A stretch of 64,000 nucleotides of DNA from Gammaproteobacteria bacterium (GTDB lineage: Bacteria > Pseudomonadota > Gammaproteobacteria > Steroidobacterales > Steroidobacteraceae). Below the pieces are notes generated by a model. The model was given only the letters and a program-made list of their open reading frames with translations, had not been told where the DNA came from and searched no databases. Positions 45,709 to 49,222 of the stretch are shown here, piece after piece. Where the stretch lies: the NCBI GenBank assembly GCA_025357835.1, contig JANYLM010000125.1, positions 1 through 64,000 of the forward strand, in the 5' to 3' direction. Made by a program: the position numbers and the translations under genes. Numbering within the stretch: the stretch's first letter is position 1; each line of letters begins with the position of its first letter.

Positions 45709-46477
45709 ATGACCCACTCTCGCTATCGCTGGGTGATTGTGGCAGCAGGTGGCCTTTTGGGCTGCCTAGCAATAGGCGCCATGTTTTCCCTGCCGGTTTT
45801 TCTCCGGCCCATCTCGCAGGATACCGGATGGTCCATCACCGGGGTGTCCAGCGCCATGACTTTTGGTTTTCTCGCCATGGCTTTGGGAAGCGTCATCTGG
45901 GGAAGTCTGTCGGACCGCTTCGGCCCCCGCCTGATAGTAATGATTGGATCAGTCAGTTTGGCTGCCAGTCTGGCTCATGCGAGCACGGCGACAACGCTCA
46001 TTGAGTTTCAACTAATGTTTGGCTTGGCTGTCGGAGGCGCGACCGCCGCGATCTTCGCGCCCATGATGGCCTGCGTGACCGGCTGGTTCGACACACATCG
46101 CAGCCTAGCGGTTTCCCTCGTATCTGCCGGCATGGGAATGGCGCCACTCACCATGTCTCCATTGGCGGCGCGGCTGATCTCCAACCACGACTGGAGAACC
46201 TCCCTGCAAATCATCGCCGCCCTCGTCGCAGCCGTGATGATCCCTGTGGCGCTGCTGGTTCGGCGCCCACCGGCTCTGGAAGGGGACAATACTGCCGCTT
46301 CCCGAGGTGAGCAGCCGCAATCTGCGATGACAGTGGGGCAGGCAACCAGATCGCCCCAATTCTTCATCCTGCTGCTGACGAATTTTTTTGTTGCGCCACA
46401 CACTCAGGACCGATTTTCCATACGGTGAGTTACGCCATAAGCTGCGGGATCCCGATAATTGCCGCTGTTTCGATCTA
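45709..46477 (+). pseudogene. MFS transporter, 5' part (interrupted by IS1595-type element)
   Basis: Reads an intact N-terminal half of an MFS transporter: TM1 GGLLGCLAIGAMFSLPVFLR, the motif A loop WGSLSDRFGPRLIVM near residue 65, and TM6. A run of seven T bases at 46383-46389 appears to have lost one T: with an eighth T the frame continues NFFCCATHSGPIFHTVSYAI and AAVSI up to the insertion at 46478. So the gene is broken both by a frameshift and by the insertion. The second half is at 48708-49222. Confidence 0.8.
46468..46477 (+). repeat. Direct repeat TTTCGATCTA at the left end of the IS element
   Basis: The same ten bases occur at 48708-48717. They are the target-site duplication in the MFS gene. 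IS1595 elements normally duplicate 8 bp, so the first two T bases may be chance matches. Confidence 0.8.
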
Positions 46478-46619
46478 AGGGGTGTCCATTTAGCTCCACG
46501 ACCCGTAACATTCGGTGTTCAGTCACGTGAGGGTCGTAAACGCCCTGAGCGGCCGGTCACATCTAACCGCTTCAAAGCGCCGCGATTTATCCCTGATGGG
46601 ATAAGGAGATACTTCCAAA

Positions 46620-46844
46620 ATGATTATTTGGGTCGTAATTGGTGTGTGGCTGTTCGTTACCGCAATTGTGATCGGATACCCGCTTCGAACTGGCCAAATC
46701 CGGGTCGGACTCAATCCAGTAAGCCGAGAGGCGGCTCCAAAGGCTTTCTGGACTGCCTACATCATCTCTACAGTCCTGTTCATCGCGGTTTCCTTCGCCG
46801 TCGCCTTCTTTATCAGAGCGATACTGCCTCCGCTAGCTCGGTAG
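46620..46844 (+). CDS. Passenger gene: small two-helix membrane protein
   Basis: This 74-residue protein has a membrane helix at about 2-20 (IIWVVIGVWLFVTAIVIGY), a hydrophilic loop, and a second helix at about 45-65 (AYIISTVLFIAVSFAVAFFI). AAGGAG lies 11 bases before the ATG. It is inside the IS1595-type element and belongs to no family I recognise. As a passenger it may give a benefit to the host cell or affect transposition; neither can be inferred from sequence. Confidence 0.65.
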   Translation: MIIWVVIGVWLFVTAIVIGYPLRTGQIRVGLNPVSREAAPKAFWTAYIISTVLFIAVSFAVAFFIRAILPPLAR

Positions 46845-47040
46845 AGTTTGGCGCCCTATCGCTTTGCATAGCTGACTTTTGATGATCAAAGATTGATCGC
46901 CACCCGCCTTCGCACATTTGAGTCGCGGGTGCGGCAGCCTGCTCATTGGACAATCGCTGTCGAAAGCAGCAGTCGACCTCCGCGAGCCGCACCTGACCAA
47001 TGCGGCGGACCGTTTCGGATACCCCTTTATTATATACAGC

Positions 47041-48064
47041 ATGATGGCGGTCTCGGGTCAAGATTATCCCCGCACCTGGTCCGAGTTCCTGGATAGGTTC
47101 TCGACCGATGATGCGTGTCTGAAGTACCTTGAGAGCCTACGCTGGCCGCAGGGGGTTTGTATGTCCGAAGTGCGCCAGTGTTGCGGCACCGTATCGAGCC
47201 AGTCGCGTCCGGCTGGTGTGCAAAAAATGCGGGCATCAAGCCACCGTGACCGCCGGCACCATTTTCGATAAGACTCGTACTTCTATGCGCGTCTGGCTGG
47301 CCGCCGCATGGTACGTGACCAACCAGAAACAAGGTGTCAGCGCGTTAGGATTGCAGCGCGTGCTCGGCTTGGGCAGCTATCAAACAGCGTGGACCGTGCT
47401 GCACCGATTCCGTCGTGCAATGGTGCGACCAGATCGGGATCGGCTCAAGGGACTCGTCGAGGTAGATGAAAGCTATCTGGCCATCACCGACCGGGAGCAG
47501 CCGATTTCCGCGGTCGGGCGTAAAAATCATACGAGCAAAGTGCTGATCGTTCTGGCTGTCGAGATCCTTCAGCCCAAAGGATTCGGGCGCATTCGTTTGC
47601 GCCGTATTCCCAACGACAGCAGAGAGTGCGTGGTGCCGTTCGTGCAGAGTTCGATTGAACCCGGCGCGGTCGTGCGAACCGATGGCTCGGGCGCGTACCT
47701 TAAGTTGCACGAATTCGGCTACGACCATGAGCGGAATGTGATGCTCGGATCTGGAACTCCCGCCCATGTGTCGATGGCCGGCGTACACCGGGTAGCCGCG
47801 CTGCTCAAGCGTTGGATTCTTGGAACGCACCATGGATCGATTCAGCCTGAGCACTTGGATGCCTATCCCGATGAGTTCGTGTTTCGATTTAACCGCCGCA
47901 GCTCGCGATCGCGCGGCATGCTCTTTTATCGGTTACTTCAGCAAGCCGTTGTAACTGACCCGATGACCTACGCCGACATTACCCAATCGGTAGTTGCGCC
48001 CTCGAAAAGGGGCATAGATGATCCTGACTTTCGCGTTACGGATTGCATTCCGGAGGTGCAGTAA
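47041..48064 (+). pseudogene. IS1595-family transposase with one-base insertion
   Basis: The start is an ATG at 47041 (MMAVSGQDYPRTWSEFLDRF). The frame breaks at about 47150, where CAGGGGGTTT has one G too many: with four G bases it continues GFVCPKCASVAAPYRASRVR, the N-terminal zinc ribbon, then CKKCGHQATVTAGTIFDKTR. The downstream frame is intact to 48064 with the ISXO2-like DDE domain (VEVDESYLAI, VVRTDGSGAYLKL, and RWILGTHHGSIQPEHLDAYP near the end). The transposase is probably inactive unless the insertion is a sequencing error or programmed. Confidence 0.82.
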
Positions 48065-48065
48065 A

Positions 48066-48670
48066 ATGACGGCTCGATGCCTCGTCTTCTGCGGAACAGC
48101 GTCATGCTGGCGAGTCTCGTTGCTCGTACTGGTTTTATCAATGAGCTTACGGGCAGGACCGCATTCGCAGCGCGCGAATCGATCGACTTTACCGTAATTG
48201 CACCGATGCCCCAGAATTATCCGATCCTGGCAGCTTCGTGCGCGCAAGTGGCCTTGGAAATGCCTAAGTACGTCGCCATTCGCTCGATCAATGATTTTAA
48301 TGAGTGGGTTCCTGACTGCAATCCGGCAAATCCGAAGATAACGGGCGGCAAGGCCAATGCCAACCAATCGCCGAAGGGGTCGAAAGGCACTCCAACGCCG
48401 GATATTGATTTCGATCGCTACACATTGCTCGTCGCCGATGCAGGGTCGAAGCCCAGCTCCGGATTCTAGTTGATGTTTAATGAAGCTTTGGACACGGGGC
48501 CGAGCATCACGGTCTACGTCGTCGAGCGCACACCTGGAAATTGCCCGCGACTCACCGAGATAATGCCAAGTCTACGGGCCTACGCGCTAATTCCGCGGAC
48601 GAGCAAACCAATCCGCTTTGTAGTTTCAACAGCAGCAACCGACTGTGGGGCCCTTAAGACGATCAACTGA
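48066..48670 (+). pseudogene. Passenger gene remnant: PrcB-like secreted protein
   Basis: The ATG at 48066 reads a signal-like start (SCWRVSLLVLVLSMSLRAGP) in one frame, then the adjacent frame from about 48150 gives a PrcB-like body: KYVAIRSINDFNEWV, DFDRYTLLVADAGSKPSSGF. An in-frame TAG at 48467-48469 interrupts it; the same frame continues LMFNEALDTGPSITVYVVER to 48670. The alignment is to PrcB of a spirochete protease complex and related proteins of uncertain function. A frameshift and a stop make it a pseudogene. Assignment is moderate. Confidence 0.5.
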
Positions 48671-48707
48671 ACGTTCAGGTACCGGCTGGAGCTAAGTGGA
48701 TACGCCT

Positions 48708-49222
48708 TTTCGATCTACAGTGTGGAAGGGCTGGCAGGCTTGGGCGGTCGTGTCGCCTTTGGTATCCTCGGAGACCGTTTTGGAGCCAAGCGCGTTCTGG
48801 TGTCAGGGCTGCTACTGCAGGCGTTCGGCGCCCTGGGCTATTTCTTCGTGCGGGAGCTGAGTGCGTTTTACGCCGTAGCCGCGCTGTTTGGCTTTGTCTA
48901 CGCGGGTATCATGCCCCTTTACGCCGTACTCGCGCGCGAGAATTTCCCGCTGCGGATGATGGGGACTATCATCGGCGGAACAGCAATGGCCGGCAGTTTG
49001 GGCATGGCGACTGGCCCATTGGCGGGAGGTTTGATCTACGATACCTTCGGTAATTACGGTTGGCTGTATGTCGGCGCTTGGGGTATCGGCATAGGGGCTT
49101 TCTTGATGGCATTGACCTTTAGGCCCTTTCCTAAAAGCCGGCACCAGCACCTGCTTGAATTGACCTCCTGCGCCGTAGTAATGAAATCAATCAGTTGGGG
49201 TGCGGGAGGTTATGGGCGCTGA
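48708..49222 (+). pseudogene. MFS transporter, 3' part
   Basis: Reads the second half of the MFS protein: FSIYSVEGLAGLGGRVAFGI, LGDRFGAKRVLVSGLLLQA and later VLARENFPLRMMGTIIGG, ending in a short tail after FRPFPKSRHQ. Joining TTTCGATCTA at the left end to this sequence restores AAVSIYSVEGLAG without a frame change. The half has no start of its own, and the whole gene is disrupted by the element at 46478-48707. The substrate is unknown. Confidence 0.82.

Follow-up and report, generated by a model that had tools for sequence, protein, structure and literature searches.

We show that the window, the whole stretch of 64,000 nucleotides analyzed here, contains an MFS transporter gene interrupted by an IS1595-family element that holds two genes unrelated to transposition between its ends. 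Most likely this element is an IS1595-family transporter IS (tIS) that carries a one-off cargo and has died where it landed. Characteristic features of the family are present, including a family transposase, an 8-bp target duplication, and inverted repeats resembling those of other members, as is the feature of a tIS, namely the location of non-transposition genes between the ends. In the excerpted text of PMC8101967, the IS1595 family is divided into seven groups (ISPna2, IS1595, ISSod11, ISNwi1, ISNha5, IS1016, and ISH4). Transporter ISs with passenger genes are already in print, the IS1595 member ISNha5 included (excerpts of PMC11891212); the term tIS also appears in the excerpts of PMC9330008 and PMC3129680, and those of PMC11891212 and PMC3129680 credit it to the IS1595-family study by Siguier et al. 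2009. ISNha5, which we liken to the window element by description only, likewise has genes unrelated to transposition inside its ends, but its cargo is a transcription regulator (excerpts of PMC11891212), unlike that of the window element. The consulted portions of PMC11891212, PMC9330008, PMC3129680, PMC8101967, PMC12888890 (a case in IS66), PMC7371123, and PMC8406286 contain no description of the window element. Our findings add one well-bounded, dead example to the gene-carrying insertion sequences, a known kind, with one unusual feature in an otherwise ordinary decayed tIS: the cargo flanks the transposase on both sides. The features of the locus are as follows.

45709 to 46476, plus strand: MFS transporter pseudogene, 5' part (PF07690 and orthologs), with its own stop at 46428
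46469 to 46476, no strand: left copy of the 8-bp target-site duplication, TTCGATCT, exactly equal to 48709-48716
46477 to 48708, plus strand: whole IS1595-family element with passengers, 2232 bp (ends, relatives, and empty-site orthologs)
46478 to 46498, plus strand: left terminal inverted repeat, like the left ends in relatives
46620 to 46844, plus strand: upstream passenger, an intact ORF 5' of the transposase encoding a hydrophobic 74-aa protein
47041 to 47160, plus strand: transposase N-terminal part, in a frame different from the remainder, the zinc ribbon being frameshifted near 47150
47150 to 48064, plus strand: main part of the IS1595 transposase, comprising the C-terminal half of the zinc ribbon and the DDE domain (PF12762, NF033547, and relatives)
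48066 to 48670, plus strand: downstream passenger, a PrcB_C-like gene broken by a stop and a probable frameshift
48687 to 48707, minus strand: right terminal inverted repeat, pairing with 46478-46498
48709 to 48716, no strand: right copy of the 8-bp target-site duplication, TTCGATCT, exactly equal to 46469-46476
48717 to 49222, plus strand: MFS transporter pseudogene, 3' part (ORF, domain search, and orthologs)

As relatives, we took the best 80 of 289 stretches encoding related transposases in one-per-species genomes and added more from whole genomes and viral contigs; plasmid copies were listed, and the two of them that were read stand outside the counts given below. After setting aside 10 loci (the window itself in seven cases and repeats of other places in three), 102 loci remained in which the transposase matched at E<=1e-20. 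Of these, 12 are without one end and 9 without either (the latter mostly distant relatives at 30-40% identity), whereas the other 81, of which 71 are distinct, are complete at both ends; the choice of ends favored pairs with an exact duplication, and some Acidovorax-type copies carry a misleading inner right-end match. Within the flanks covered, which extended up to 4 kb for named and viral contigs and 1.5 kb for other genomes so that larger cargo would be missed, 75 of the 81 both-ended relatives are plain ISs of 1035-1136 bp without room for cargo, and six carry cargo. The nearest transposase relatives (76-82% identity) are either plain ISs of 1.05-1.12 kb or incomplete copies in which an end is absent or truncated. 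The same end type, GGGGTATCCnnTTAGCTCCA, and the same target are found in ISCsp2 and related plain IS1595 copies, mostly from Burkholderiales (Polaromonas, Ramlibacter, Acidovorax, Xenophilus, and others). The window transposase has 73% identity to those of plasmid copies with an ISCsp2 annotation and 78-82% to those of the top-ranking Polaromonas and Ramlibacter copies, and a plasmid copy annotated as ISCsp2 family (L157) has terminal repeats of the window's type. Both-ended ISCsp2-type copies measure about 1.05-1.1 kb, whereas the window element is 2.23 kb long, holds two passengers, and has a frameshift in its transposase.

The boundaries of the element follow from these relatives. A preliminary description of the locus had reported 21-bp terminal inverted repeats with 18 matches, and the repeats at 46478-46498 and 48687-48707 are indeed identical at 18 of 21 positions, a pairing absent from all 20 mononucleotide shuffles of the 2.6-kb region. 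That these ends define the element in other copies is borne out by the 81 both-ended relatives, which have ends and targets of the same kind. The direct repeat TTTCGATCTA is present on both sides (46468-46477 and 48708-48717), as had been reported, but the duplication had been taken as 10 bp, and its proper unit is 8 bp; the longer repeat consists of TTCGATCT and one further matching base per side. Because an 8-bp unit lies two bases outside the GGGG...CCCC core in the relatives, with an exact repeat at that position in 56 of 81, we assign TTCGATCT as the duplication and 46477-48708 as the element. A GT-N8-AC context surrounds the duplication in 42 of those 56 relatives, and the target of the window element is likewise a GT-N8-AC site. 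A target duplication of 8 bp is usual for the IS1595 family, according to the excerpted text of PMC8101967. A scan for promoters and terminators gave results at chance level.

Orthologs of the interrupted gene provide the empty sites. MFS orthologs in open frame occur in the same genus (L097 at 80% and L098 at 74% identity) and in the same family (L099 at 59%); all three lack the insert, and their DNA is continuous through the joined flanks of the window gene. When the flanks are joined with both copies of the repeat, exactly 8 bases are missing at the site in each of the three, as a single block in L098 and split 3+5 in L097 and L099. A further locus, L100, gave no alignment that exceeded the score limit. 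The possibility that the inserted genes are host genes residing beside the MFS gene is rejected by L097-L099. The insertion with its duplication and empty-site orthologs is represented by one copy; because no other element with this cargo turned up, the presumed mobility of the whole 2.23-kb segment as a unit rests on this one insertion. It had also been proposed that removing the element cleanly rejoins the MFS frame, which is correct at the junction but not for the gene as a whole. Compared with L097-L099, one base is absent near a T-run in the window gene; its N-terminal part therefore runs into a stop some 40 bp ahead of the insertion, at 46428, and excising the element would not restore the frame. 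Because this separate one-base deletion precedes the insertion site, the MFS gene was, or became, a pseudogene independently of the IS.

The transposase matches the IS1595 models NF033547 (173.6 bits, cutoff 75) and PF12762 (DDE_Tnp_IS1595; 120.3 bits, cutoff 27), which upholds the earlier assignment to an IS1595-type element, and its main part is 63-82% identical to the 80 best relatives of the 289 encoding stretches. The zinc ribbon (Zn_ribbon_IS1595, PF12760) is present but split in two pieces by the frameshift, the N-terminal piece covering positions 2-21 (E 3.4e-5, 24.2 bits) and the C-terminal piece covering positions 18-46 in the other frame (E 4.5e-5, 23.8 bits), each just below the cutoff of 25.4 when taken alone. 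A programmed frameshift is disfavored by the four best other matches (60-76% identity), which are open over 332-339 aa and have no stops. There is no clear sign of decay by substitution, with 2 departures at 109 near-invariant columns compared with 0-6 in 71 relatives. The source genome is a draft of 4.05 Mb in 148 contigs, 94% complete, in which we found no second copy of the element, no other site that fits the end pattern with up to 3 mismatches, and no second transposase match at E<=0.001, and therefore no helper. A control end pattern read backward matched once per strand in the same genome, so isolated end-like hits with 3 mismatches are not unusual there.

We propose that an intact transposase would have bound the 21-bp ends and moved all the DNA between them, and that the gene for the 74-aa protein and the PrcB-like gene would be ordinary host genes picked up by chance and carried along. 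The element may have landed in the MFS gene either before or after that gene lost its base, and the frameshift in the transposase would have arisen afterwards. Element and cargo would now be decaying, given that the transposase is frameshifted and that the genome yielded no helper. The cargo would most likely have entered when neighboring IS copies, or their ends, recombined and the inner ends were then lost. Besides the dependence on a single insertion, two observations count against the tIS reading. The subterminal DNA beside the outer repeats is unlike that of relatives on both sides (all z below 1.3; 20 and 18 rows), which counts against it because cargo inserted into an intact IS should leave one side recognizable, and upstream cargo is rare among the relatives (1/81).

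It is possible, although we hold it doubtful, that the segment is the remnant of a composite transposon, in which at least two related ISs flanked host genes and later lost their inner ends and every transposase except one, so that the two surviving outer ends would come from different copies. This explanation overlaps the preferred tIS reading as one route to it, so the two are not mutually exclusive. The unfamiliar subterminal sequences and the presence of cargo on either side of the transposase speak for such a remnant, as do the outer repeats, which differ at 3 of 21 positions and thereby fall at the low edge of the range for single elements (18 matches or fewer in 11 of the 81 both-ended relatives). 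On the other hand, the genome has one transposase match only, and no inner IS end is recognizable around it, as the closest internal fits to the consensus of the ends have 7 mismatches in 20. An internal stretch at 47017, GGATACCCC, resembles an inner right end with a target behind it, but it alternatively aligns with the DNA that precedes the transposase start of some relatives (6 of 20 rows, including L002-L004, have z values of 3.1-4.4; the near relative L005 reaches a z of only 0.7). From these alignments, it would be pre-transposase sequence rather than an inner right end, a point that we regard as weakly settled. A plain IS nested within older DNA is rejected, as the transposase has no flanking internal ends.

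Cargo on both sides of the transposase is found in the window only and in none of the 81 relatives. The six relatives with both ends and cargo are the following.

L065, downstream of the transposase: DUF3800
L069, downstream of the transposase: a protein of 83 aa, no family
L073, downstream of the transposase: RHH-like, PIN-like, and DUF29 proteins
L074, downstream of the transposase: HTH/HipB-like protein and HipA
L114, downstream of the transposase: a protein of 257 aa, with a weak match to DUF5677 (E 0.026, below cutoff)
L150 (viral contig), upstream of the transposase: C5-cytosine methyltransferase (PF00145), in an element of 2631 bp at L150:2257-4887

Five of the six thus carry cargo only downstream; these have window-type ends, exact 8-bp duplications, and foreign genes inside, but their cargo differs from that of the window. 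The exception, L150, has upstream cargo like the window's and an exact 8-bp duplication, but nothing downstream and a different gene; its transposase is 48% identical to the window's, its ends are 3-4 mismatches in 19 from the consensus, and its methyltransferase gene seems to be split over two frames. A further relative, L077, carries RHH_1 and DUF433 genes and stands outside the 81 because its contig contains no right end. The labels RHH-like and PIN-like in L073 are our reading of the letters; for these proteins Pfam returned nothing beyond DUF6364/DUF6290 below cutoff, or no match at all, and PADLOC only weak matches to PDC-S70. L065, L069, L073, L074, and L077 are related elements in which the cargo varies, always lies downstream, and is in several cases toxin-antitoxin-like.

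A tree of matches with at least 250 aligned residues and no stop (84 rows, 70 distinct) groups L065, L069, L074, and L077 together with support (99/95); L073 is absent, its match probably extending across a stop. The window falls among plain copies, adjoining L082 without strong support (86/65). The cargo label, borne by seven rows including the window and L077, changes four times on this tree, and at least three changes are forced by well-supported branches. It is tempting to hypothesize that an IS1595 lineage repeatedly gives rise to cargo carriers, here with a two-sided layout and in another of its clades with cargo that is often toxin-antitoxin-like, but we consider this unlikely. If it were true, the toxin-antitoxin-like cargo (HipB-like and HipA; RHH-like and PIN-like; RHH and DUF433) would make small ISs addiction vehicles. 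The 81 both-ended relatives provide a cargo rate of 6/81 and a layout tendency of 5/6 for downstream only, and the unrelated, partly toxin-antitoxin-like cargo within one small IS clade is more useful than the window copy itself.

The preliminary description correctly placed two non-transposition genes inside the ends and went on to suggest an undescribed passenger-bearing IS subgroup. Such a stable IS1595 subgroup, in which both proteins are fixed cargo aiding the element or the host, is in our estimation very improbable. In its favor, both passenger genes lie on the transposase strand, the start region of the PrcB-like gene directly follows the transposase stop, and the 74-aa gene is intact and, compared with its closest homolog (G134, 76% identity), has a dN of 0.14 and a dS of 0.68 (dN/dS about 0.2), with silent differences in 19 codons and replacement differences in 18. 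The 74-aa protein, which from its sequence probably has two membrane helices, matches no Pfam or NCBIfam family above cutoff. The PrcB-like gene, however, is broken, being interrupted in frame by a TAG at 48467-48469 and probably also frameshifted, with a probable signal peptide in a different frame from 48066. With the stop read as X, its product has no Pfam match, PF14343 (PrcB_C) included; the homologs L093, L094, and L095 pass the PF14343 cutoff of 24, at 33.3, 27.6, and 41.9. Of 395 other genomes of the order, 3 encode PrcB-like homologs and 2 encode homologs of the 74-aa protein, to which a single weak match appeared among 368 other genomes of the class. No IS ends occur in the 3.2 kb read near the G134 homolog, nor does an end pair surround the cargo homologs L083/L142, L093, L094, L095, L143, and L155 in the stretches read, where L143, L094, and L095 contain only single weak end matches (4-5 mismatches in 19).

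Copies elsewhere likewise argue against fixed cargo. In a search of 217 family genomes, its own included, the element DNA matched 10 besides its own over the transposase region or a short stretch only (in G144 a plain IS with both ends, in G134 just the 74-aa gene), and no match spanned the transposase and passengers. Neither passenger protein matched in plasmids or viral contigs, and no other copy with the window's cargo was found in the genomes, plasmids, and viral contigs searched. It is thus the transposase, and not the cargo, that recurs in this material, which, by the criterion of the preliminary description itself, lends no support to stable cargo; nor is the proposed subgroup supported, given nearest relatives that are plain or incomplete, a single and decayed copy, and the passenger-bearing IS1595 members already described in the excerpts of PMC11891212.

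Chance or assembly artefact, in which ordinary host genes happen to lie between fortuitous repeats, is extremely improbable. In its favor, the draft is in many contigs, homopolymer runs contain or adjoin the transposase and MFS indels, and the control pattern finds matches. Against it, three orthologs have empty sites, and the window element resembles the 81 relatives in its repeats, its target, and its 8-bp duplication. Many long ORFs elsewhere in the window are unbroken, so general noise in the assembly seems an unlikely source of the lesions.

When the search for cargo carriers related to L074 was widened, viral contigs yielded none and plasmids yielded one strong match, whose copy is plain. 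Among the other copies, the left terminal repeat is present twice, 48 bp apart, at L012:82-150. An Enterobacter hormaechei IncC plasmid (L156) carries a plain IS1595 copy with an 8-bp duplication beside merR of a mercury resistance cluster, and its transposase is 73% identical to that of L074.
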